Positions 1 through 13,507 of a stretch of DNA of 29,270 bases are shown in pieces (position 1 is the stretch's first letter; each line of letters opens with the position of its first letter). The notes beneath the pieces were generated by a model that was not told where the DNA came from, ran no database searches, and saw nothing but the letters and a program-made list of their open reading frames with translations. The stretch comes from a virus: the IMG/VR virus record IMGVR_UViG_3300033571_001070, positions 1-29,270 of that record; one strand, given 5' to 3'. Made by a program: the position numbers and the translations under genes.

Positions 1-1919
1 GCAATCTCAGCAAGTTTGACTCGACGTTCAAAATCCTTGCTTTCGTTGTCTTCATTAAGGTTGTTAGACAGTGCAGCGATGTACTTTGCCTGTGCAACTT
101 GAGGTGCAATCTGAGCCTCAACAGAAGCCTTCTGAGCCTCCGCAGACTCTCTAGCAGCCTTAGCCTGCAATTCCTGTACTTGAGCCGCCAGAAGCTGCAT
201 TTGAGCCTGTTGTTGAGCCATAGCAGCCTGTTGGGCAGCAGGATCAGGCTGACTCATCTGTTGCAATGCAGCAATCAAGTCACCACGATTGCTCAAACTA
301 CTGTTTTCAAGGATACCCTTGAGAATCAAAGGCAGAACAGGCGTATCAGGCCCCAAAGTCTGTAACAAAGCAATCATCTGTTGCTGTTCAAACTCACGAG
401 CAAGGATACCAAGCGTTGCCGTAGGCACAAACTTCATGTCCACAGAAGGATAACGGTCTGGATCAAACTGCATGTACCTAAATACAGCCTTGTTGATGAA
501 TGGAATCATGAAGTCTTCTTGGAAATTCGTCAGGGTTCGCTTATATTTCTTGATAATTCCCGCCATAGCCATCGACATACCACCGGCAGAAGCATCACGG
601 GGTACGTTACTAGGCATACCAGCACTGTCAACGGTGCCAGTAGCTTGTAGAAGCATTCTCTCAAAGTTCTGAGCAGCCGCCACCGCATTACCGTCCGTCT
701 GACCAAACTTAAACGGATAAAGAATTTCACTTGGAGCACCGTTAGTCAGGATAGCCTTACCGGGCTTGATCTCAAACTTGGCACCGCGAGGCAGTCGCGT
801 AGCATCCATAGCGATCATAGGAGCCGTTGTAAGGGCTAAAGAGTCCATATGAGCCCGCAGTTGACCGTCAATGGCCTTCTGCATGTTGTAGGCCTTCTCA
901 ACAGTACCACGACCCCAAAAACGTCCAGGCACCGTATCATCCTGATAGGCCACCACAGGACGATCCTTCATCATGTACGGGCTTTCCTCAGCCTTCAGCA
1001 GCACACCGTCATTAGCAATGACAACAATAGCCTCAACTAAGTTGCAATGTTCGTCTGCTTCTGATCCTTCAGGGAACAATTCTTCGTATTCGTCTTCTTC
1101 AGGATACAAATATTCTTTGGGAACTAAGCCGTAGTACGTCAGTAGCTTGACCTTATCATCGTGATAGGTACGAAGTTCCTGCGTAGGCTCCAAGTCATCG
1201 TCAGAATACACTGGTCCGATGTTGGCTTTCTTGTAAATACCCTTCTCAATGTTCTCAACCACCTTGTGAATTGAGACATACTTCTCAATAGCGACACCCA
1301 AAGCATCATCAATGCTGTCTGCGTTAGGGTCAATAAGGAAGTTCTTAGGGTTTACAGGCTTGATCTTAACCGTTACACGTTCCGTTTCAGTCACACCAAT
1401 GGCGGCTGCTTGCACTCCGGGCATCGGTTGCGTAGCAGGGGTGTATTCCATCTCTGTACCGACAAGGATCTCTCCAATGCCCGTACCGTAGATCTCAGCC
1501 ATCAACTCAATCTGGTCTACAGACTTCTTGATTTTGTCTTTCTTGAAGTCTTCGTGAAGCTGTTTACGGATGGCTTCAATGTCCAGAGGGTTACCGTTGA
1601 TGTCTTTGAGGTCATCAGCGATGTCAAAGAACTCTCCGTTACCGAAGATGGCTTCCATGATCTCAGCGTGTCGTGTCTCCACAGCCTGCTGCGTGGCAGG
1701 ACTGATGATACGACTACGCTCAGAGTCTCGGGTCTTGTCCGCAGCATCCCAGATACCACGGAAGATACGCTCGTATTCTTCCCATAGTTCTTGGAAGTTA
1801 GAATCCCTATGGTCACGCCACCGGTCACAGTGGTCAACAACCCAAGAAGTTAACTCGCGTTCCCCTTCTGAAGGTTCCTCAAAGAGGCTCTCAGGCGGCT
1901 TGTCGTTATAATCGTCCAT
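1..1919 (-). CDS. Portal protein (head-tail connector), 3' end cut by window edge
   Basis: An open frame runs from an ATG at 1919 to position 1 with no stop, about 639 codons. The start overlaps the large terminase stop by one base (TGATG), so translation is probably coupled. The N-terminal part is acidic and rich in aromatic residues, followed by a long mixed domain. The visible C-terminal part (roughly residues 545-620) is rich in Gln and Ala and probably helical, as in the barrel region of podoviral portals. Gene order small terminase, large terminase, portal is the usual packaging order, and the length fits the 600-750 residue podoviral portals. Portals form the dodecameric ring through which DNA enters and leaves the head. 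The identification rests on length, context and general sequence look, not on a short catalytic motif. Confidence 0.85.
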   Translation of the reverse strand, partial: MDDYNDKPPESLFEEPSEGERELTSWVVDHCDRWRDHRDSNFQELWEEYERIFRGIWDAADKTRDSERSRIISPATQQAVETRHAEIMEAIFGNGEFFDIADDLKDINGNPLDIEAIRKQLHEDFKKDKIKKSVDQIELMAEIYGTGIGEILVGTEMEYTPATQPMPGVQAAAIGVTETERVTVKIKPVNPKNFLIDPNADSIDDALGVAIEKYVSIHKVVENIEKGIYKKANIGPVYSDDDLEPTQELRTYHDDKVKLLTYYGLVPKEYLYPEEDEYEELFPEGSEADEHCNLVEAIVVIANDGVLLKAEESPYMMKDRPVVAYQDDTVPGRFWGRGTVEKAYNMQKAIDGQLRAHMDSLALTTAPMIAMDATRLPRGAKFEIKPGKAILTNGAPSEILYPFKFGQTDGNAVAAAQNFERMLLQATGTVDSAGMPSNVPRDASAGGMSMAMAGIIKKYKRTLTNFQEDFMIPFINKAVFRYMQFDPDRYPSVDMKFVPTATLGILAREFEQQQMIALLQTLGPDTPVLPLILKGILENSSLSNRGDLIAALQQMSQPDPAAQQAAMAQQQAQMQLLAAQVQELQAKAARESAEAQKASVEAQIAPQVAQAKYIAALSNNLNEDNESKDFERRVKLAEI

Positions 1920-3178
1920 CAATACCCCGCTATTTTGTCAAATACTTCGTACTCATCTTCTTCATAGTCTTGAAGATAAGGAGTAACAGCTAATTGATCC
2001 ACGTAGGACAAAGCATCAACCAAGTCATCATGCACACCTGCTGTGGGGAACATGATAAGCTGATCGACAAACTCTTCCCAATCCTCATCCTCGTTAAAGC
2101 TGATACGACCATGCTCAAGTCTTCCTTGAAGACCCCACACAACTCTTTCAGCTTTCTTCTTGTTACCGTGAGTCAGATCAGTGATGTGCGAATAAATGTT
2201 ATTCTTACGCATCAAATCCGTTAGATATGGCAACACCGCATTCTTTAATGAACCACGCTCAATACCAACACCAATAGGTTGAAAGTCCCTGATGGACTTC
2301 AGGATGTTCACAGCAGTGGTTCTGATGTCCCACCGCCCATGTCTGATCTCTTTAACCCACCAGTCACCATTGTCAGTCACCTTGACAATAGCAATAGCCG
2401 ATTCATCTAATCTCTTCTTTGCTGCACTAGCAGTAGACCCCACGTCCTCAAAGCCTGCTAAGTCAATAGCAACGACATAGGAGCCATACTGAGGCTCTGG
2501 TGCTGTCTTGAACCATTCTCGCTTAAAGACATCAGCACCGGCATTATCAAAGCTACTCAAGTATTCCTGCTTAAAAGCAAAGGAACTCAGCGTACGCTTA
2601 GCAGCCTCAATTTCTTTAGGATCAATTGTTTCGTTGTCTTGGGTGGTGAAGTGCCATGCCTTCCACTCTTCATCTTCATCCGACAACCCTAGCTTATAAA
2701 CATCGTAGAACCAGTTTCTACCGCTAGGCGTTGAGATGAATAACGCTCTACCTTTTTTGTCGGACAATGCAGCACGCAGAATCTTTTGCCATACATCTTC
2801 TTTAATGAAGGCGCATTCGTCCAACACTAGGTAAGTTAAACTCACACCACGAAGACTGTCAGGATTGTCTGCACCTCTGATCAGAATCTTTCTACCATTG
2901 ATAAGACTGATCTCAAGGTTGTTAACGTGACTGCTCTTGATTACAGGCCTCCCAAGCTCATGTAACAAGTCCCAGATAATCGTCCGGGCCTGCCCCAGCG
3001 TAGGGGCCACATACATCACATGGCTGCCCTCAGGACAGTTTAAAGCCTCTATGAGCAGCGTTACAGCCGACAACCTAGACTTACCACACCGACGACCAGC
3101 AGCTACAACCTTGAACCGCTTATCGCTCTTAAAGACCTCTTGCTGCCACTTGAGTAGTTGGAAGTTAAGACTCGTCAT
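1919..3178 (-). CDS. terL: Terminase large subunit (packaging ATPase and nuclease)
   Basis: A 419-residue protein with the two-domain plan of phage packaging motors. The ATPase half shows Walker A AGRRCGKS (residues 27-34), Walker B YLVLDE (116-121, catalytic Glu 121) and the coupling motif FISTPSG (148-154). The RNase H-like nuclease half shows the acidic residues expected for metal binding: Asp 239 in VVAIDL, Glu 307 in GVGIERG, and Asp 384/385/388 in VHDDLVDAL. The enzyme docks on the portal, cuts concatemeric DNA and pumps it into the head. The start at 3178 overlaps the small terminase by 14 bases and the stop overlaps the portal start by one base, so the three genes form one unit transcribed leftward. 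No truncation or missing key residue is seen. Confidence 0.96.
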   Translation of the reverse strand: MTSLNFQLLKWQQEVFKSDKRFKVVAAGRRCGKSRLSAVTLLIEALNCPEGSHVMYVAPTLGQARTIIWDLLHELGRPVIKSSHVNNLEISLINGRKILIRGADNPDSLRGVSLTYLVLDECAFIKEDVWQKILRAALSDKKGRALFISTPSGRNWFYDVYKLGLSDEDEEWKAWHFTTQDNETIDPKEIEAAKRTLSSFAFKQEYLSSFDNAGADVFKREWFKTAPEPQYGSYVVAIDLAGFEDVGSTASAAKKRLDESAIAIVKVTDNGDWWVKEIRHGRWDIRTTAVNILKSIRDFQPIGVGIERGSLKNAVLPYLTDLMRKNNIYSHITDLTHGNKKKAERVVWGLQGRLEHGRISFNEDEDWEEFVDQLIMFPTAGVHDDLVDALSYVDQLAVTPYLQDYEEDEYEVFDKIAGY

Positions 3179-3560
3179 CAGTTACCTCCGTGTACTCAGC
3201 GTCACTGACATCATACACTTGTTCAGTGTTCACCGTTGGTGAGTTAAGACCACTGATATTGATGCTGATCTGAGGGACACCACCACCACTCTTATTGGTG
3301 ACATCAAAGGCACTGATGGGTGCAACTCTATCAATAACTAACTTCCAGGCCGCTGCTTGATTCTTATTCTCTGGATCTAATGCCGCATCAAAGATAGCTT
3401 CTAAGACCTTAGCACTCTTCGGTGATGCAAGCATACGCTGTACATAGCCATCGATGATTGCCTTGGTGCCCGGAGGTCTGCCTACAGGTCTATTCTCTTT
3501 GATTGCTGCAAGGTCAGACTTCTTTGGTCTTCCTTTTTTATTGCCACTGGGTACTGTCAT
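3165..3560 (-). CDS. Putative terminase small subunit (DNA recognition)
   Basis: A 131-residue basic-to-acidic protein directly upstream of the large terminase, overlapping it by 14 bases. The first 33 residues are Lys/Arg-rich and carry two AT-hook-like cores, GRPKK (10-14) and GRPPG (27-31), suited to minor-groove DNA contact. A helical middle (about 33-85) could be the oligomerising part, and the C-terminal 20 residues are acidic. Small terminases bind the packaging site and regulate the large subunit. The ATG at 3560 is preceded by AAAGGA with good spacing. The assignment comes from position, size and the DNA-binding look; small terminases diverge too much for a motif test. It is the first gene of the leftward operon. 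Confidence 0.75.
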   Translation of the reverse strand: MTVPSGNKKGRPKKSDLAAIKENRPVGRPPGTKAIIDGYVQRMLASPKSAKVLEAIFDAALDPENKNQAAAWKLVIDRVAPISAFDVTNKSGGGVPQISINISGLNSPTVNTEQVYDVSDAEYTEVTDDES

Positions 3561-3785: not shown

Positions 3786-3814
3786 ATCATAGCACATTTT
3801 AGTCATTTTGTCAA
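3786..3814 (-). promoter_or_regulatory. Leftward sigma70-type promoter for terminase/late genes
   Basis: On the minus strand a perfect -35 TTGACA (3814-3809) is followed after 17 bases by TATGAT (3791-3786), matching the -10 consensus at five of six bases. The predicted start is near 3779, leaving a leader of about 220 bases before the terminase genes. The heptamer TAGCACA (plus strand 3790-3796), which recurs in this noncoding region, overlaps the -10 box, so a repressor site here is conceivable. Confidence 0.75.
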
Positions 3815-4189: not shown

Positions 4190-4286
4190 GAGTCATGCAA
4201 GAATCATGCCAGGTCTGTGGTGTGGGAGTCGTTGGTGGTACCTCTGACGTACACTTGAAGCATACCTGAAGCATACTTGATAGCAC
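4190..4286. repeat. Two sets of 11-base iterated units
   Basis: GAGTCATGCAA (4190-4200) is followed by GAATCATGCCA (4201-4211). Further on, CTTGAAGCATA (4254-4264), CCTGAAGCATA (4265-4275) and CTTGATAGCAC (4276-4286) stand head to tail. The exact 11-base register recalls iterons bound by replication or partition proteins. They end 21 bases before the parS match. Confidence 0.4.
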
Positions 4287-4307
4287 ATCCTAGACTCAGC
4301 CCATCGG

Positions 4308-4323
4308 TGTTTCACGTGAAACA
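4308..4323. promoter_or_regulatory. parS: Perfect parS-like centromere site
   Basis: The 16-base palindrome TGTTTCACGTGAAACA is identical to the widely conserved chromosomal parS consensus bound by ParB (Spo0J) proteins. A fixed 16-mer is expected about 7 times in a million windows of this size with equal base use, so chance is unlikely. No ParA or ParB gene is visible in the window. The site lies in the noncoding hub between the 11-base repeats and the rightward promoter. ParB loading here by the host protein is inference. Confidence 0.85.
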
Positions 4324-4361
4324 ATGCAGCTTGACAGTGTGGTAAAAATACAACAGTAACA

Positions 4362-4378
4362 CTAGGGTTTGTCCCTAG
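4362..4378. promoter_or_regulatory. Palindrome upstream of the rightward promoter, possible operator
   Basis: CTAGGG (4362-4367) and CCCTAG (4373-4378) flank TTTGT. It lies 20 bases upstream of the -35 box at 4399, a typical place for a regulator site. The T run needed for a terminator is missing on both strands. Confidence 0.4.
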
Positions 4379-4398
4379 AAAAAAGATGAAGAAAGTGT

Positions 4399-4426
4399 TT
4401 GACAGTCCCAAAGATGGGTGCATAAT
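4399..4426 (+). promoter_or_regulatory. Rightward sigma70-type early promoter
   Basis: TTGACA (4399-4404), a 16-base spacer and CATAAT (4421-4426) give a near-consensus promoter pointing into the early arm, with a start near 4433 and a leader of about 45 bases before the first gene. A second TTGACA at 4331 has no good -10 box. Confidence 0.75.
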
Positions 4427-4478
4427 AGAGTCATCGGTTAGGCAATAAAGCACAGCCGAACACACTGGAGCAGACAAC

Positions 4479-4664
4479 ATGTACTTCACCAAGGTCCGGC
4501 CAGACGGCACCACGGAGCGCCTGCGACACGTCACGTATACCGTGCGTCAAACCGGTGCATCTGAGTGGTGTGCATACACTCTCAAGGGCCGTTTGCTGGC
4601 CAGGGATCGTCGCAGCGAATCACATCTGCGCGCAGTCTGCGACACGATCGCGGAACCCACATGA
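4479..4664 (+). CDS. Early hypothetical protein, 61 residues
   Basis: First gene after the rightward promoter. The ATG at 4479 has GGAG (4467-4470) at good spacing. The product is small and basic, with many Arg and Thr and a single Trp-Cys pair in the middle; no membrane segment or known motif is seen. The decamer CACACTGGAG before it recurs at the same distance (8 bases) before the next gene, so the two share a ribosome-site module. First-expressed small phage proteins often act on the host, but nothing in the sequence shows a target. Function unknown. Confidence 0.7.
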   Translation: MYFTKVRPDGTTERLRHVTYTVRQTGASEWCAYTLKGRLLARDRRSESHLRAVCDTIAEPT

Positions 4665-4717
4665 CCGCGCCGCTTGCGTTCCCTCAACCCTGACACACAC
4701 ACACTGGAGTAACTAAC

Positions 4718-4804
4718 ATGCACAAAGCCTTCACCCTTGCAGATTGTGTCTTCGCCGGGGCCTATGGTATCATCCTGGGTCTCTTGATCGCAGCGTTTAT
4801 CTAG
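4718..4804 (+). CDS. Very small membrane protein, 28 residues
   Basis: The ATG at 4718 follows CACACTGGAG with an 8-base gap, the same arrangement as for the gene at 4479. The peptide is short and polar for about eight residues, then about 20 residues of Ala, Gly, Leu, Ile and Phe that would span the inner membrane once, ending at TAG 4802. Small single-span phage peptides can modify membrane proteins of the host, but the role here is unknown. The strong ribosome site and hydrophobic composition argue that it is a real gene despite its size. Confidence 0.6.
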   Translation: MHKAFTLADCVFAGAYGIILGLLIAAFI

Positions 4805-4816
4805 GGTTTACACCTA

Positions 4817-4843
4817 TAGCACATTGCCTACCAAAGTGTGCTA
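4817..4843. repeat. Inverted TAGCACA repeat before gene 4879
   Basis: TAGCACA (4817-4823) and TGTGCTA (4837-4843) are perfect inverted arms around 13 bases, in the 74-base gap between two early genes. The same heptamer is found at 3594, 3790 and 4281 in the control hub, so it may be a recurring protein site. A hairpin in the mRNA is the alternative. Confidence 0.45.
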
Positions 4844-4878
4844 GAGTGTGCGCCTTGCACTTAACCGGAGCTTTCATC

Positions 4879-5202
4879 ATGTATCAACGTGCTACCCTGT
4901 CAGACTTCCGTGACGCATTCAATTCTGCAGGCCGTCTTGATCAGTTCTCCTACGATGGCTTGCGTGTCATCTTTGATTGGCTTGAGGAGTACGAGGATTC
5001 CACCGGCTCACCCGTTGAGCTTGACGTCATCGCCATCTGCTGCGATTACGCAGAAATGACGCCCGAGGAGATCATTGAGGCTTACAGCATCAACTTTGAT
5101 TCACAGGTCGATGATGCTGAGTCTGTCGCCACGGATTATCTGGAGGATCACTCTTTGATCCTGGGCAAGACCAAAGACACCATTGTCTTCAGCCAGTTCT
5201 AA
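4879..5202 (+). CDS. Hypothetical acidic phage protein, 107 residues
   Basis: The ATG at 4879 is preceded by CCGGAG (4865-4870) and was chosen over an in-frame ATG at 4744 because the longer form would run through the upstream membrane peptide and the inverted repeat. The protein is strongly acidic and helical in look, with the segment FDWLEEYEDSTG (residues 33-44) and a DVIAICCDYAEM stretch, then a TPEEIIEAYS helix. Similar small acidic proteins are common among early genes of phages infecting proteobacteria; no catalytic motif is visible. A DNA-mimic or inhibitor role would fit the charge but is only a guess. Confidence 0.8.
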   Translation: MYQRATLSDFRDAFNSAGRLDQFSYDGLRVIFDWLEEYEDSTGSPVELDVIAICCDYAEMTPEEIIEAYSINFDSQVDDAESVATDYLEDHSLILGKTKDTIVFSQF

Positions 5203-5219
5203 CACAAGGGGCATTGACC

Positions 5220-5507
5220 ATGACCGAAGTTTTCACTGTCCACGGCAAACCCTACATCCTGACAGATGGCTATCTGTACCGCGCAGCGCCTAACATGCTG
5301 CCACGCAAAGATGCGCGCGGTAATCGCTACGCTAAACAAGACGGATGGATTCCCGATGGCATCCCCTTGATGCGCGTCACGAACGATTGGGATAACCCTT
5401 TGTTGGCTCTCTTGTTGAATCGCGGCACGCCTGCATGTGATATTGCACCCGATGGCGTATGTGAGGCGCTAGAGTGCTGCAAAGATAACGGGAGGGTTTG
5501 CGTATGA
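5220..5507 (+). CDS. Hypothetical protein, 95 residues
   Basis: The ATG at 5220 has AAGGGG (5205-5210) at good spacing and is preferred to a TTG at 5214. The product has mixed composition with a Tyr/Gly-rich N-terminal half and a Cys-rich end (CDIAPDGVCEALECCKDNGRV), where four Cys in 20 residues could bind metal. Its stop overlaps the ATG of the next reading frame by ATGA. No family recognised. Confidence 0.75.
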   Translation: MTEVFTVHGKPYILTDGYLYRAAPNMLPRKDARGNRYAKQDGWIPDGIPLMRVTNDWDNPLLALLLNRGTPACDIAPDGVCEALECCKDNGRVCV

Positions 5508-5670
5508 AGTTTAGCACTGTAGAGATCAAAGAGCGTGAAGCCAAGATGGCCGCATAAAAGCGTTTGAAGAGCTGCGAGAGCATATGGTAAAGTGCTGCGA
5601 AAATAATATAAAAGAGCTTACACACAAGATCAACAATCTCAAGAAACTCGCCCCACATAAGGAGGTATGA
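5504..5670 (+). pseudogene. Small gene apparently split by a -1 frameshift
   Basis: The ATG at 5504, coupled by ATGA to the gene before, opens a frame of only 17 codons that ends at TAA 5555. In the -1 frame, from about 5557 to TGA 5668, the sequence reads as a charged helical peptide (KAFEELREH at the start, KELTHKINNLKKLAP near the end). Joined, the parts give one coherent small helical protein of about 54 residues. No slippery heptamer is seen before the stop, so decay or a sequencing error is more likely than programmed frameshifting. The second half could also be translated alone from ATG 5584 (28 residues). Confidence 0.45.
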
Positions 5671-5672
5671 TC

Positions 5673-5822
5673 GTGCATAACATTATCGAAAGACTGTCAA
5701 ATATCTTTGAATCAGATAATCGTGAATTATCTTCTATGGAATATATTCAAGCCACAGATATACTTGAGGAGGAACAATACATCGTATCTCAAATCGTTAC
5801 AGATAATCATTTGGGGGACTAA
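5673..5822 (+). CDS. Hypothetical small acidic protein, 49 residues, GTG start
   Basis: GGAGG (5661-5665) is seven bases before GTG 5673, the ideal spacing; an ATG at 5667 in the same frame is only one base from that site. The peptide is rich in Glu, Asp, Ile and Asn and looks helical. It ends at TAA 5820. It has no known motif. Its strong ribosome site and tight packing between coding regions support a real gene. Confidence 0.6.
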   Translation: MHNIIERLSNIFESDNRELSSMEYIQATDILEEEQYIVSQIVTDNHLGD

Positions 5823-5826
5823 CATC

Positions 5827-5973
5827 ATGTATGCAGTTATGTTCAAGTCTAGTGGCGTGATTGCTGCTCGTTTCCTTGATCGCACCAATGCAAAGTTCTG
5901 GGCATGGATCAACGATATGGACCACGAGGGAAACCCTATGGGCCTGTTTATCGTTAAGAAGGTGAAGCCATGA
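5827..5973 (+). CDS. Hypothetical protein, 48 residues
   Basis: The ATG at 5827 follows GGGGG (5812-5816). The peptide begins with a hydrophobic beta-like stretch (MYAVMFKSSGVIAARF), then a Trp-rich centre (FWAWINDMD) and a basic end (IVKKVKP). It overlaps the next gene by four bases. A longer in-frame form from 5707 would lie over the gene at 5673 and is not needed. Function unknown. Confidence 0.65.
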   Translation: MYAVMFKSSGVIAARFLDRTNAKFWAWINDMDHEGNPMGLFIVKKVKP

Positions 5974-6200
5974 GCGTCTACACAATGAGTCGTCAAGACC
6001 TAGAAGACACTGTTGTTATTTTACAACGAGTGTGTCACAATGCAGCCATCCAAATCAATGAAGCTGTGCTGGAGTTGGACTATGGTTCTCAGTTGAAAGC
6101 CATGACCATCCTTCAGCAAGTGACCTTCAGGCTCATGGATGGCTCAGGAAGGGCCCTAGAAGGCTCTAGGATCGATCAAAAGCCCGTCACCATGTCGTGA
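5970..6200 (+). CDS. Hypothetical helical protein, 76 residues
   Basis: The ATG at 5970 overlaps the previous stop (ATGA), indicating coupling. Residues 6-58 look like two amphipathic helices with a hydrophobic repeat (LEDTVVILQRV, LKAMTILQQVTFRLM). No enzyme motif or membrane segment is seen. Function unknown. Confidence 0.7.
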   Translation: MSVYTMSRQDLEDTVVILQRVCHNAAIQINEAVLELDYGSQLKAMTILQQVTFRLMDGSGRALEGSRIDQKPVTMS

Positions 6201-6228
6201 CAACCCCTAAGAAAGCGAGGAACCCAAA

Positions 6229-6468
6229 ATTCGTTGTACCTGCTGCAATCGTGCCCTTTCCGACTTTGAGTCAACCCGCCGCCATGCTCTCACTGACGCT
6301 TTTCTTGATCTTTGCAATACCTGCTTTGATGAAGTTAGCGAAGATGCCGACATCCCAGTGATCACCAGGGGTGACCTTGAGTGTTGTGAAGACACAACAT
6401 CAGAGCTTGACAACTTCTCTTCTATGGATTACAATGATGTCTTCACTGATGTTCACTTTGATGAATAA
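6229..6468 (+). CDS. Small zinc-ribbon protein with an ATT start codon
   Basis: The frame is closed upstream by TAA 6208 and has no ATG, GTG, TTG or CTG before the conserved-looking N-terminus, which begins at ATT 6229. GAGGA (6217-6221) lies seven bases before it. The product (79 residues if the ATT is read as Met) starts with an IRCTCCNRALS segment and has paired cysteines at 3/6 and 29/32, a compact zinc-ribbon arrangement, followed by an acidic tail. Small phage proteins of this look normally start Met-Arg/Lys-Cys, so the ATT stands exactly where ATG is expected. A point mutation or sequencing error in the start is the alternative. Role probably DNA or protein binding; not known. Confidence 0.7.
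   Translation: MRCTCCNRALSDFESTRRHALTDAFLDLCNTCFDEVSEDADIPVITRGDLECCEDTTSELDNFSSMDYNDVFTDVHFDE
6407..6435 (+). promoter_or_regulatory. Internal rightward promoter before the replication genes
   Basis: TTGACA (6407-6412), 17 bases, then TACAAT (6430-6435) lies inside the end of the zinc-ribbon gene. Predicted start near 6442, just before the A/T-rich octamer array and gene 6556. The -35 is perfect and the -10 matches five of six. Confidence 0.6.
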
Positions 6469-6482
6469 ATAAATATAATACA

Positions 6483-6542
6483 TTAATGTATACTTTAATG
6501 TATATAATTAATGTAATATATCTTAAATGTTTCTTTAATGTA
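6483..6542. repeat. A/T-rich array of TTAATGTA octamers
   Basis: Exact TTAATGTA copies begin at 6483, 6495, 6508 and 6535, with a degenerate copy at 6523, giving steps of 12, 13, 15 and 12 bases. The 84-base gap between genes (6469-6552) is almost entirely A and T. It may be an origin melting element or an operator array on the transcript from 6407. Confidence 0.5.
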
Positions 6543-6555
6543 ACAAGGGGTAATG

Positions 6556-6747
6556 ATGTCTGATTATGAGTTCAACGATTCATACTCATATGCTGCCGAG
6601 TATGTCATGGAGTGTCGTCAAATGATGGCGGATTCATACAACTATGGGGTCTATAATGAGGTTGCAGACCTTATTGTCGAATACGGGTGGGATCACGTTA
6701 AAGCCCGCATTGATGAGGCTTTGAACAGGGTTAACGGACATGAATAA
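6556..6747 (+). CDS. Hypothetical acidic, Tyr-rich protein, 63 residues
   Basis: Two ATG codons stand in tandem at 6553 and 6556; the second is preferred because AAGGGG (6545-6550) is five bases away from it. The peptide is rich in Tyr, Asp and Glu with a helical C-terminal half (VADLIVEYGWDHVKARIDEAL). It overlaps the next gene by eight bases. It is the first gene after the octamer array. Function unknown. Confidence 0.7.
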   Translation: MSDYEFNDSYSYAAEYVMECRQMMADSYNYGVYNEVADLIVEYGWDHVKARIDEALNRVNGHE

Positions 6748-6913
6748 TACGAACCCTTTAGATACTCTTGTCGAACCTAAGACAATCAAGCATCGACCCA
6801 ATTGGCCTTTCTATGTATACACTGACACAGACACAGGAAAGTTATTCATCAATAAAGCACCAAGACAAACCAAGAAACAATACCTTGACACACTTGAAGA
6901 GGCATTACTGTGA
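6740..6913 (+). CDS. Hypothetical protein, 57 residues
   Basis: ATG 6740 overlaps the end of the upstream gene and the stop at 6911 overlaps the next start (GTGA). The sequence is basic to neutral, with a compact beta-like middle (WPFYVYTDTDTGKLFI) followed by a basic helix. The tight gene packing is the main evidence that it is real. Function unknown. Confidence 0.65.
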   Translation: MNNTNPLDTLVEPKTIKHRPNWPFYVYTDTDTGKLFINKAPRQTKKQYLDTLEEALL

Positions 6914-7149
6914 AATTTAATGTACTGGTTACCGTTCAAGAAACTACCTTCGAAGTTGTCGGATGCTATGAGCATTCCGTCCCTGGACGTACATCAGGAC
7001 ATCCCGACGAATGGGAACCCTCAGAGCCTGAAGAATTCGACGTCGAGTCTATCAACGTCAATGGTGCGGACATGACGGAATTCTTGGACGACTATTACTA
7101 CCGGTGGATCAGTGATTGCGCACTACAGGAACTTAGGAGTAATTCATAA
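6910..7149 (+). CDS. Hypothetical acidic protein, 79 residues, GTG start
   Basis: GTG 6910 overlaps the previous stop as GTGA. The N-terminal 25 residues look like a beta hairpin (FNVLVTVQETTFEVVGCYE), followed by a Pro/Glu-rich segment and an Asp/Tyr-rich helix (MTEFLDDYYYRWISDCALQEL). No known motif. The stop overlaps the next ATG by one base. Confidence 0.7.
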   Translation: MKFNVLVTVQETTFEVVGCYEHSVPGRTSGHPDEWEPSEPEEFDVESINVNGADMTEFLDDYYYRWISDCALQELRSNS

Positions 7150-7355
7150 TGAAAGCCACGTTAGAGTTTGACCTCCCAGACGATGAACACGCATTCAATC
7201 TCGCAACTAAAGCCTCAGAGATGCACAGTCTGATTCTGGGTTGTCATGAACGCTTGCGCATGTACGTCAAGCACGGTAACCCTGATAACGAGTCAGCGAT
7301 GGACGTTATCGAGGATGTTAAGTTCAGGTTAAGTGCTGTTTGGGACTACGAATGA
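7149..7355 (+). CDS. Hypothetical helical protein, 68 residues
   Basis: ATG 7149 overlaps the preceding TAA (TAATG), and the end overlaps the primase-helicase start by ATGA. The short beta-like start (ATLEFDLP) leads into helices (AFNLATKASEMHSLILGCHERLRM). Small helical proteins just upstream of T7-like primase genes are common, but nothing shows the role here. Confidence 0.7.
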   Translation: MKATLEFDLPDDEHAFNLATKASEMHSLILGCHERLRMYVKHGNPDNESAMDVIEDVKFRLSAVWDYE

Positions 7356-8974
7356 CCTCTAAATTCTTGCGTCATGTGTCGTGTAGTTACTGCGGTAGCT
7401 CTGATGCTGGTGCAATCTATGACGATGGGCACTTCCATTGCTTCAAGTGTGGAACAACCAAGCAAGAATCAGAACTAGAATACGATGATATTTGTCGTTA
7501 CAACACACAAAGTGCACGAAGTGCAAACACTAAGGCCTTTATGACTGGCATTGTAGACATTCCAGGTGATTACAAATCAATCAGTGACAGGGGCATCAGT
7601 AGGGCTACCTGCGAGAAGTTCGGAGTCAAACAAGACGACACCAGACACTTCTATCCCTACTATGACACTGAGGGAACCCTATCTTCTTATAAGACGAGGC
7701 AGGTAGCAGATAAAAAATTCTCAATCACTGGAGATTTTAGTAAATCTGGCCTCTTTGGACAACATTTGTTTCACTCTGGTGGCAAGTACATCACAATCTA
7801 CGAAGGAGAACTAGACGCTCTAGCAGGCTTTCAACTTACGGGGTCTCAATGGCCCTCAGTGAGCATCAGGAATGGCGCTCAGGCTGCATTAAAGGACTGC
7901 AAGGCACACTTTGAGTGGTTGAACACCTTTGAGACTGTGGTCATCTGCTTTGATGCTGATGAGCCAGGAAAGAAAGCAGCACGGGAAGTTGCAGAATTGT
8001 TTGGCACTAAAGCCAAGATCGTTAAACACTTGACAGGATACAAAGATGCGTGTGATTACTTGGTTGCTGGGGCAGGGAAGGAGTTCGTCAATGAATGGTG
8101 GCGAGCAGAAACTTACATCCCTGATGGTATCGTTAATGCTGCCGACCTCTGGGAAGACGTTAGCAAACCAGAAAAGCCAGCAGATGCACAGTACCCGTGG
8201 AAAGGACTGAACAAGCTCTTGTACGGTATCCGTTCGGCAGAACTCATCACAGTCACTGCCGGGTCTGGTCTGGGTAAGAGTCAGTTCCTCCGAGAGATCC
8301 TGTACCACCTACTGAAGACCACAAACTTCCGCATAGGTGCGATGTTCTTGGAAGAATCTATACGCAAGACTGCACGGAGTATCATGTCAGTGCACGCTAA
8401 CAAGATGCTTCACTTACCGGACACACCAGTGACTGACAAGGAACTTCATGATTCTTTCGATGCGACTCTTGGTACTGGCAGGGTTTTTCTTTTTGATCAT
8501 TTTGGATCAACAGATATTGATAACATCCTTAACCGTATTAGATATATGGCTAAGGCTCTCGACTGCCGCGTTGTTTTCTTGGATCACATATCAATTGTTA
8601 TTTCTGGGCAGGATTTAGGAGATGAGCGTAAGGCCATTGACAACTTGATGACTAAGCTGAGGACGCTGGTGCAGGAATTAGAGATCACACTGTTCTGTGT
8701 GTCTCACCTTCGCAGGCCCCAAGGCAATGCAGGACACGAGGATGGACAGGCCGTGTCGTTGTCACAGTTGCGAGGCTCTGGTGCCATTGCTCAGTTGTCG
8801 GACGCTGTGATTACACTGGAGCGTAACAGCATGGCAGAGGACGAAGCAGAAAGGCACACGACTAAGGTTGCTGTGGCTAAGAATAGATTCAATGGCTACA
8901 CTGGACCCGCATGCCACTTGCGTTTTGACACAGAAACTGGTAGAATGCGTGAAGTCGAAGAGGAGACACTATGA
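7352..8974 (+). CDS. T7 gp4-type primase-helicase
   Basis: A 540-residue bifunctional replication protein. The start at ATG 7352 (coupled to the previous stop by ATGA) is preferred to a TTG at 7340. The N-terminal zinc-binding domain has Cys 11, 14, 30 and 33. The TOPRIM primase core shows EGELD (151-155) and FDADEPG (200-206). The hexameric RecA-like helicase follows with Walker A AGSGLGKS (303-310), the catalytic glutamates 334/335, Walker B VVFLD (407-411), His 452 of the gamma-phosphate sensor segment CVSHL, and the QLRGSGAIAQLSD motif (472-484). T7 gp4 unwinds the fork 5' to 3' and makes primers for the lagging strand. It lies two genes before the polymerase, as partners usually do. All key residues are present. 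Confidence 0.95.
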   Translation: MTSKFLRHVSCSYCGSSDAGAIYDDGHFHCFKCGTTKQESELEYDDICRYNTQSARSANTKAFMTGIVDIPGDYKSISDRGISRATCEKFGVKQDDTRHFYPYYDTEGTLSSYKTRQVADKKFSITGDFSKSGLFGQHLFHSGGKYITIYEGELDALAGFQLTGSQWPSVSIRNGAQAALKDCKAHFEWLNTFETVVICFDADEPGKKAAREVAELFGTKAKIVKHLTGYKDACDYLVAGAGKEFVNEWWRAETYIPDGIVNAADLWEDVSKPEKPADAQYPWKGLNKLLYGIRSAELITVTAGSGLGKSQFLREILYHLLKTTNFRIGAMFLEESIRKTARSIMSVHANKMLHLPDTPVTDKELHDSFDATLGTGRVFLFDHFGSTDIDNILNRIRYMAKALDCRVVFLDHISIVISGQDLGDERKAIDNLMTKLRTLVQELEITLFCVSHLRRPQGNAGHEDGQAVSLSQLRGSGAIAQLSDAVITLERNSMAEDEAERHTTKVAVAKNRFNGYTGPACHLRFDTETGRMREVEEETL

Positions 8975-9150
8975 TCAGCCTTGAACAGTTGATTGGAAGG
9001 GTTTGGGAGCTAGAGGGAAAATACTTTGATCTACAACAGCAGTATCAGTTATTGATCCACCAGTATGAGCAGTTGAAAGAGAAACATGAGAGTTGTTCTA
9101 GACTCAGAGACGGACAGCAAGGCGAAGAAGATTCACCTAGTAGTAACTAA
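8971..9150 (+). CDS. Small coiled-coil protein, 59 residues
   Basis: ATG 8971 overlaps the helicase stop (ATGA). Residues 3-42 form a regular heptad-like helix rich in Leu, Gln, Glu and Tyr (LEQLIGRVWELEGKYF, then LQQQYQLLIHQYEQL). The last 65 bases overlap the start of the DNA polymerase in another frame, which is long but within what phages show. Alternatively the polymerase starts further down, but its exonuclease motif sits at residue 6, so the overlap is real if this gene is. Function unknown. Confidence 0.55.
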   Translation: MISLEQLIGRVWELEGKYFDLQQQYQLLIHQYEQLKEKHESCSRLRDGQQGEEDSPSSN

Positions 9151-10976: not shown

Positions 10977-11058
10977 GGACGGTTGGTGAAAGAGGTAAAC
11001 ACAGAAGACTTAAAATCTTCCGCCGAAAGGCTTTCGAGTTCGAGTCTCGAACCGTCCA
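10977..11058 (+). tRNA. tRNA-Leu (anticodon TAA)
   Basis: A complete class II tRNA cloverleaf of 82 bases. Acceptor GGACGGT (10977-10983) pairs fully with ACCGTCC (11051-11057), discriminator A 11058. D arm GTG/CAC with a GG-containing loop (10986-11002). Anticodon arm GAAGA/TCTTC with loop CTTAAAA (11009-11015), anticodon TAA at 11011-11013, reading TTA leucine codons. Long variable arm with GCC-GAAA-GGC hairpin (11021-11033), typical of tRNA-Leu. T arm TCGAG/CTCGA with loop TTCGAGT (11034-11050). CCA is not encoded (CAA follows), so the host must add it. It has its own promoter at 10927. The whole gene except its first nine bases also lies inside the HNH reading frame. Confidence 0.93.
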
Positions 11059-11570
11059 CAAAAGAAGAGTGGAGACTTGTAGAGAAACATGGGGGAATCT
11101 TTGAGGTTTCTTCTCATGGAAACATGCGTAGAAAAGGATCAGAAAAGATTCTTAAGCAAGCCATAGGGAAAAATGGGTACAGACTGATTGCTTCCTATAT
11201 AGGTGGGCGTAAAGGAACGGCTGTTTGTTTTAGGGTGCATTGTGAGATAGCGAGAGCTTTCATACCAAACCCTCATAACAAACCTTTTGTCAATCACAAA
11301 GATGGATGCAAGACAAACAACTCACTCGACAATTTAGAGTGGTGTACTGCTGCTGAAAACACAAGACACGCACATCTAACGGGACTAATAAAAGTTCCTC
11401 GGGGCGATGCCAATAAAAATACTCGCATAAGTGACAAACAAGTAATAGAAATAAAGGAACTATCTTTATCTTCCGGCCGATCTTTGCGCTCTTTGTGTAG
11501 GGAACATAAAATTTCTCATTCAACCGTTATATATCGTTACAATAGACTGAAAGGAATAAACAATGAGTGA
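10986..11570 (+). CDS. HNH homing endonuclease (NUMOD4-HNH), start inside tRNA-Leu
   Basis: A free-standing homing endonuclease of the NUMOD4-HNH type. The NUMOD4-like segment begins at residue 27 (EEWRLVEKHGGIFEVSS), the HNH part shows VNHKDG (102-107), a TNNSLDNLEW stretch (110-119) and AENTRHA, and the C-terminal 50 residues look like a helix-turn-helix DNA reader. No ATG, GTG or TTG lies in frame between the tRNA end and the middle of NUMOD4 (next is ATG 11124), so the start must be GTG 10986 or TTG 10983, both in the tRNA gene. GGAGG (10974-10978) is seven bases before the GTG. Residues 1-24 are therefore coded by the tRNA sequence. The gene looks A/T-richer than its neighbours and ends eight bases inside the SSB gene, signs of a mobile insert. 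Confidence 0.8.
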   Translation: MKEVNTEDLKSSAERLSSSSLEPSTKEEWRLVEKHGGIFEVSSHGNMRRKGSEKILKQAIGKNGYRLIASYIGGRKGTAVCFRVHCEIARAFIPNPHNKPFVNHKDGCKTNNSLDNLEWCTAAENTRHAHLTGLIKVPRGDANKNTRISDKQVIEIKELSLSSGRSLRSLCREHKISHSTVIYRYNRLKGINNE

Positions 11571-12709: not shown

Positions 12710-12942
12710 ACCACCTGACGGAGATGGGAAACTGTGAGCCTGCTCAGGCCATGCTGCGTATTAGCAGGAACATGCCAGTGCAAGCTAAAGAGTCTACCTT
12801 CTACCATGAGCTTGTCCATGCTATCCTTTACACTATGGGCAGGAACGATCACGATGAAGTCTTTGTAGACTCCTTCGGTAACCTGCTCCACCAGTTTATG
12901 AATACATTCCATGAGCCCGAGCAGTGCGAAGAATCCTCTTGA
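12661..12942 (+). CDS. Small zinc metallopeptidase-like protein (HELVH)
   Basis: The protein carries the zincin signature YHELVHAIL with HExxH, followed by a likely third ligand region HDEVFVDSFGNLLHQF. Small zincins of this type are found in many phages near replication genes; the substrate is unknown. The start is uncertain: GTG 12661 (93 residues) has GGAG five bases before it and is used here; GTG 12631 with GGGAA and ATG 12673 without a clear ribosome site are alternatives. It overlaps the exonuclease end by 49 bases and the second HNH gene by 32. Whether it is an active peptidase cannot be told from sequence alone. Confidence 0.75.
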   Translation: MSSFMLAGTVWDVYEVDHLTEMGNCEPAQAMLRISRNMPVQAKESTFYHELVHAILYTMGRNDHDEVFVDSFGNLLHQFMNTFHEPEQCEESS

Positions 12943-13507
12943 GGAGGCCCACGACCCTGGGGGAGATTATGTTACTCACATAGATAGCCAAGGTATTCAA
13001 CGGAGGAAGTATAAAACTTATTGTATTGAATGCGGTATTGAGAGGCTTGTTACGAAAACACGCCTAAATAAACAAAAAAGGTGTAGGGCTTGTGCCAATA
13101 AACTGCCTCCGACGGAGGAACAACGCAAACGTATCTCGGAAACTTTGCGGAATAAGTACGCAACTGATGCGGATTTCAAACGTCGAGTAGCCGCAGCACA
13201 AAATGTGTCAAGTGGTGATAAGCACTGGAACTGGAAAGGTGGCGTTACTCCCCTCAATCAGAGAACACGCACTTCCGGAGAGGTGAATGCTTGGAGGCTT
13301 GCTGTTTTTCATAGAGACCACTACAAGTGTCGTATATGTGAAGAAACAAAAGATATTCAAGCTCACCACATAAATTCTTGGGCGGCTTTTCCAGAAGATA
13401 GGTTTGTATTGGAAAACGGCCTTACTTTATGTGCCCCTTGCCATAAACAGTATCATGATTATGAAAGGGAGGTCAGTAAAAATGGCACTAAAACCCTCGT
13501 CAGCTAA
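12911..13507 (+). CDS. HNH homing endonuclease with zinc fingers
   Basis: A 198-residue free-standing HNH endonuclease. A first zinc finger uses Cys 38, 41, 58 and 61. A DNA-binding linker includes the GDKHWNWKGG segment (102-111) typical of phage HNH proteins. The HNH nuclease has Cys 140/143, the catalytic HH 152-153, and Cys 174/177 with His 178. Its first residues MSPSSAKN resemble the start of the nuclease gene that follows (KPSSAKN), as though the insert captured that gene's original start. The ATG at 12911 lies 32 bases inside the peptidase gene, and the stop lies inside the next gene. The sequence looks A/T-richer than its surroundings, fitting a mobile gene. Confidence 0.9.
   Translation: MSPSSAKNPLEEAHDPGGDYVTHIDSQGIQRRKYKTYCIECGIERLVTKTRLNKQKRCRACANKLPPTEEQRKRISETLRNKYATDADFKRRVAAAQNVSSGDKHWNWKGGVTPLNQRTRTSGEVNAWRLAVFHRDHYKCRICEETKDIQAHHINSWAAFPEDRFVLENGLTLCAPCHKQYHDYEREVSKNGTKTLVS

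Follow-up and report, generated by a model that had tools for sequence, protein, structure and literature searches.

Organization of the divergent hub

The DNA analysed here, which we call the window, is the whole stretch of 29,270 nucleotides at positions 1 to 29,270 of the IMG/VR virus record IMGVR_UViG_3300033571_001070. The phage is podovirus-like and encodes a T7-type helicase-primase, a family A DNA polymerase and a 5'-3' exonuclease, as well as MazG, ThyX, a class II ribonucleotide reductase (RNR) and PhoH; in its long relatives, an SU10-like portal and adaptor as well as a phage lysozyme were found in addition. Beside the polymerase gene lies a gene for an HNH/NUMOD4 homing-type endonuclease (10983-11570), and a second ORF (12911-13507) was judged by eye to look like an HNH gene.

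The leftward packaging genes are separated from the rightward early genes, which start at about position 4479, by a gap of approximately 900 bp, referred to as the hub (Table 1). It contains the 16-bp palindrome TGTTTCACGTGAAACA, which lies in noncoding DNA, with the terminase genes to its left and the early genes to its right, and fits the parS consensus TGTTNCACGTGAAACA at 16 of 16 positions. This consensus has been tabulated for B. subtilis and Burkholderia, with N at position 5 (PMC7022226). The initial annotation had described a perfect parS site, and our scan of the window agrees: the palindrome is present in a single copy, and no second match was found with up to three mismatches. At this threshold 0.14 matches are expected from dinucleotide shuffles of the window, and 8.2e-6 exact copies are expected from base composition. 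The site had also been placed in noncoding DNA, which is confirmed by the reading frames crossing it, as these differ from one relative to the next in both length and sequence; the variant base of relative L203 replaces K by E in the longest frame of the minus strand. Since none of these frames is conserved, a coding origin of the palindrome was ruled out.

Table 1 Features of the hub and its borders in the window
Feature	Position	Strand	Basis and remarks
Terminase large subunit (TerL)	1919..3178	-	phrog_2, E=1e-49
Putative terminase small subunit, left hub border	3165..3560	-	ORF; position upstream of TerL; no PHROG match
Leftward sigma70-like promoter, extended -10, for packaging genes	3786..3814	-	scan
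Three imperfect 11-bp repeats, TTGAAGCATAC / CTGAAGCATAC / TTGATAGCACA	4255..4287	+	by eye
Conserved block CATYGG-parS-ATGCAG	4302..4329	.	sole strongly conserved block in the 250 columns to its left and right
parS-consensus palindrome TGTTTCACGTGAAACA	4308..4323	.	exact unique match; kept in 5/5 close relatives
Small hairpin CTAGGG-loop-CCCTAG, terminator-like on minus strand	4362..4378	-	between parS and the early promoter
Sigma70-like early promoter TTGACA-16-CATAAT	4399..4426	+	scan, 11 of 12; 75 bp downstream of parS
First early ORF right of the hub	4479..4664	+	ORF; no PHROG match

The proximity of an early promoter, also claimed previously, holds true in the window, and a TTGACA element lies 65-66 bp from parS in the relatives L203, L205 and L206; it is absent in L202, the record of which carries the same leftward promoter motif as the window. 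The small hairpin is partly kept in L203, L205 and L206 and lost in L202. The iterated repeats reported next to the site could be recognized only weakly, as about three 11-bp units seen by eye, and they are poorly kept in relatives.

Conservation of the parS palindrome among relatives

We retrieved 80 relatives with TerL. Conservation in close relatives had been proposed as a check on the site, and parS was found at the same place in each of the five relatives whose TerL is at least 95% identical (95-99%); the hub is included in all of them. Three of them carry the exact palindrome, while L203 and L204, which are near-identical to each other, carry TGTTCCACGTGAAACA; this sole substitution among the close relatives, T to C, falls on position 5, which is the N of the consensus. 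The approximately 500 alignment columns around the site diverge among the close relatives and contain indels. When five non-redundant hubs were aligned (66-88% pairwise identity, many indels), no 16-column block other than parS reached 15 invariant columns in the 250 columns to its left or right, and the conserved stretch took in six 3' bases too, whereas 26% of the gap-free columns in these flanks were invariant. The conservation in the alignment and the unconserved reading frames indicate that the noncoding parS is maintained by selection. Close relatives also carry a tRNA-Leu gene with the anticodon taa (L202:340-423, L203:125-209).

A search of 39 whole records, allowing up to two mismatches, returned parS only in the five close relatives and in L269, a more distant relative with 82% TerL identity. 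The perfect parS of L269 is found where an early ORF ends; its context is unrelated, and the early side of this phage is unrelated in sequence to that of the window. As the stretch has no counterpart in L280, which is a 95% relative of L269, the 16-mer arose or was acquired separately there. The early ORF of L269 (MKRLIHPAVNTQALRTVPRETNDCTVRAL...) is located at 1525-1965, counted on the reverse complement of the 2.6-kb stretch that lies upstream of TerL; a parS-like site follows directly upon its start, and the perfect parS is at its stop codon. The second site of L269, GGTTCCACGTGAAACA, was discounted, since it lies inside an ORF and may be due to chance. No parS was found in about 40 hub-containing relatives with 81-87% TerL identity; the function of the site is thus dispensable in most of the family.

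DnaA boxes in the hub

In the 46 family loci with a hub, 63 of the 65 TTATCCACA DnaA boxes were located in the hub, i.e., 63 boxes in 50.6 kb of hub DNA versus 2 in 579 kb elsewhere, and permuted TTATCCACA controls had no hub bias. The hubs of 22 of these 46 relatives are full of DnaA boxes. Dense clusters of perfect boxes were seen 400-1500 bp upstream of TerL in L257, L275, L240, L278 and L279-L281, among others. The window and L203-L206 contain no TTATCCACA boxes; in L202 two DnaA boxes lie some 90 bp away from parS, and five boxes matching a looser consensus are present in L269. Since almost all boxes of the family fall there, the hub is probably its replication origin and would depend on host DnaA. 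The parS site occupies the position where relatives probably bind host DnaA, and its setting would resemble that of chromosomal parS. The GC skew changes sign near the parS of the window but tracks gene orientation, and we discarded it as proof of an origin.

Search for ParB, ParA and the host

A search with PF02195 (ParB_N), which was positive in 10 of 14 control genomes, gave no match in the window, in the 39.6- and 40.7-kb relatives or in L269. Neither ParA, ParB nor an integrase was among the best 25 Pfam families of each relative of about 40 kb, the completeness of these contigs being unproven. Thus, neither approach revealed a phage-borne ParABS system with its own ParA and ParB, and the earlier statement that parA and parB are not visible in the window can be extended to two relatives of about 40 kb.

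A nucleotide search of cultured phages with positions 4279-9000 of the window gave no match, and the only cultured phages related in TerL have about 27% identity, which provides no cultured host. A TerL profile scan of genomes returned a single short contig (66% TerL) in a betaproteobacterial MAG, which possesses two exact parS sites just upstream of a mnmG/gidA-like gene. This hints at a betaproteobacterial host, the binning of a phage contig into a MAG being weak evidence. The specificity of the host ParB is assumed from the near-universal consensus. Two other routes to the host were abandoned: the best matches of the helicase and RNR were diverse (Pelagibacter, rhizobial/roseobacter phages), and the tRNA-Leu of L202 gave only a partial match of at most 81% identity, besides exact pieces of 26 bp, in 299 genomes of the phylum of the MAG.

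Comparison with known systems

The palindrome is the same as in chromosomal parS sites and probably has an origin-like neighbourhood in the phage family, but a bacterial replicon also encodes ParB, whereas the phage site is an orphan. Phage-plasmids such as P1 and some mycobacteriophages possess parABS systems in which the centromere site is accompanied by self-encoded ParA and ParB; the window phage shares the presence of a centromere site in the phage genome, but no ParA or ParB of its own was found.

The closest parallel in kind is the Bacillus phage phi29, whose DNA becomes trapped in spores through the action of host Spo0J (PMC9437464). Our scan of its genome (NC_011048) identified four TGTTTCACGTGGAACA sites with one mismatch each (0.18 expected at up to three mismatches), and its annotated genes include no ParB. 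Thus phi29 is a virulent phage with parS-type sites and without a ParB of its own, and the window phage likewise combines a parS-type site with the lack of a detectable phage ParB. The two phages are nevertheless unrelated, as the window phage has a T7-like helicase-primase, a family A polymerase and an SU10-like portal. Furthermore, phi29 has four sites versus one per genome in the window clade, replicates as a linear molecule by protein priming and infects a sporulating Gram-positive host with Spo0A control, whereas nothing links the host of the window phage to spores. Another mobile element with parS but without parAB is SGI1, whose parS mimics hijack the ParABS system of the IncC plasmid and destabilize this helper plasmid (PMC10954446). 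Like the proposed use in the phage, it exploits the ParB of another replicon, but SGI1 is an integrative element that targets a plasmid and has two copies of the site and a dedicated protein, Sci. The literature on orphan parS in lytic phages, in which few subscription journals were covered, yielded no papers other than the ones we cite.

Predicted function of the parS site

The conservation of the site, the substitution tolerated at the free position of the consensus, the independent copy in L269 and the phi29 precedent argue that selection has very probably maintained parS as a place where host ParB docks. We are accordingly rather confident in predicting that host ParB binds it. The initial annotation had proposed that the site attracts host ParB as a tether, a silencer or a decoy; of this, the sequence supports well that it is a true parS to which host ParB would be attracted, each of the three uses being a possibility.

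Chance, or contamination of the assembly with host DNA, would explain the palindrome without any function. Apart from the general risk inherent in metagenomic contigs nothing speaks for it, and with 8e-6 exact copies expected and five independently assembled contigs that agree in the position of the site, we regard this as negligible. More serious, though still improbable, is that the palindrome serves a phage-encoded DNA-binding protein and resembles parS by convergence. Palindromes near early promoters are often operators, and on both sides of this palindrome six further bases belong to the conserved block. Such convergence would, however, have to account for the identity with parS at 16 of 16 positions, for a substitution only at the free position and for the presence of this 16-mer in L269 as well, where its flanks are unrelated. 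In addition, no repressor candidate was present among the best 25 Pfam families of each long relative, where small ORFs without assignment remain.

If host ParB is the ligand, the question is what the phage gains. Our main reading, to which we give about even odds, is that the site is a genuine, maintained loading site for host chromosomal ParB in a phage without ParB, with positioning or partition of the genome as its likeliest benefit. Upon entry of the phage DNA, host ParB would recognize parS, close as a CTP clamp and spread across the hub and the early region. The ParB-coated phage genome could then be handled as an extra host origin region, and the unintegrated genome would be positioned or partitioned through host ParA and/or SMC. 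One benefit might be that the genome survives cell division in slow or starved hosts, as has been reported for phi29 with Spo0J; effects on nearby early transcription may arise as a by-product or represent a second use. In favour of this reading are the origin-like location and the precedent of phi29, but there is only one site per genome of about 40 kb, and for a fast lytic phage the need for partition is not obvious. That segregation or positioning is the main purpose of the site is a possibility to which we give slightly less than even weight.

Alternatively, ParB spreading from parS may cover the promoter 75 bp away and repress or delay the early genes, which would couple infection to the ParB/CTP status or the cell cycle of the host and act as a lytic-deferment device. 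Consistent with this, the window, L203, L205 and L206 possess a sigma70-like promoter 65-75 bp downstream of parS, and P. aeruginosa ParB represses promoters beside parS3 and parS4 (PMC5521831). However, L202 retains parS though its TTGACA promoter is lost, which argues against a role as a silencer only, and chromosomal ParB silencing has been described as limited in most hosts (PMC5521831); we consider such a switch rather unlikely. Replicated phage genomes could also titrate host ParB off the chromosomal parS sites, disturbing segregation or freeing the nucleoid. A replicating phage brings many copies, and the parS mimics of SGI1 do destabilize their helper plasmid (PMC10954446). Nevertheless, titration would favour many sites per genome, and late in the lytic cycle it would have no evident benefit. 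Since the phage has a single site, we judge the decoy to be as improbable as the operator.

Exact parS sites in other viral contigs

The exact 16-mer occurred in at least 120 contigs of IMG/VR, compared to 1 and 13 contigs for two control palindromes of the same composition. A ParB_N match was missing in 96 of the first 100 of these parS contigs, and 21 of the 48 parS records of at least 15 kb encode a phrog_2 terminase. The excess sets an upper limit for viral use, as host DNA may be present in some of these contigs. A crude ORF filter classed 44% of the exact sites as intergenic versus 9% of the background (only 7/25 of the sites in TerL-positive records); this excess was set aside as support, as the filter miscalls spurious ORFs.

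The phenomenon is already known in kind, as the spore entrapment of the virulent phi29 has been reported to rely on host Spo0J/ParB. What is new is another phage lineage, the overrepresentation of exact parS sites among viral contigs without ParB, and a hub that is rich in DnaA boxes in other members of the family and is thus probably the replication origin. So far, phi29 has been the main documented case of a phage using host ParB, and there the purpose is entry into spores. The conserved orphan parS of an environmental lineage unrelated to phi29 and the excess in ParB-less contigs suggest that phages may borrow the segregation machine of their hosts more generally, without a tie to sporulation. 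In practical terms, a single, easily mutated site would provide a handle on the placement and inheritance of phage genomes in slow-growing or carrier cells.

More speculatively, the divergent hub might be a modular landing pad for host chromosome-origin proteins, with which the phage imitates oriC/parS, and orphan parS might be a widespread, overlooked viral strategy. This tentative proposal rests on the occurrence of sites for DnaA in many members of the family, for ParB in the window clade and for both in L202 and L269. If it is true, replication and segregation of the phage would fall under host cell-cycle control.

Some viral records contain many parS-type sites. L086 (record G125; 116,662 bp) has 24 of them, 1 exact and 23 TGTTTCACGTGGAACA, in two clusters at 91.7-95.7 kb and 105.8-112.4 kb; it has no ParB_N match, and its terminase gene contains in-frame TGA/TAG. 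In L009 (record G048; 18,120 bp), which also has no ParB_N match, six parS-type sites are arranged as three close pairs.
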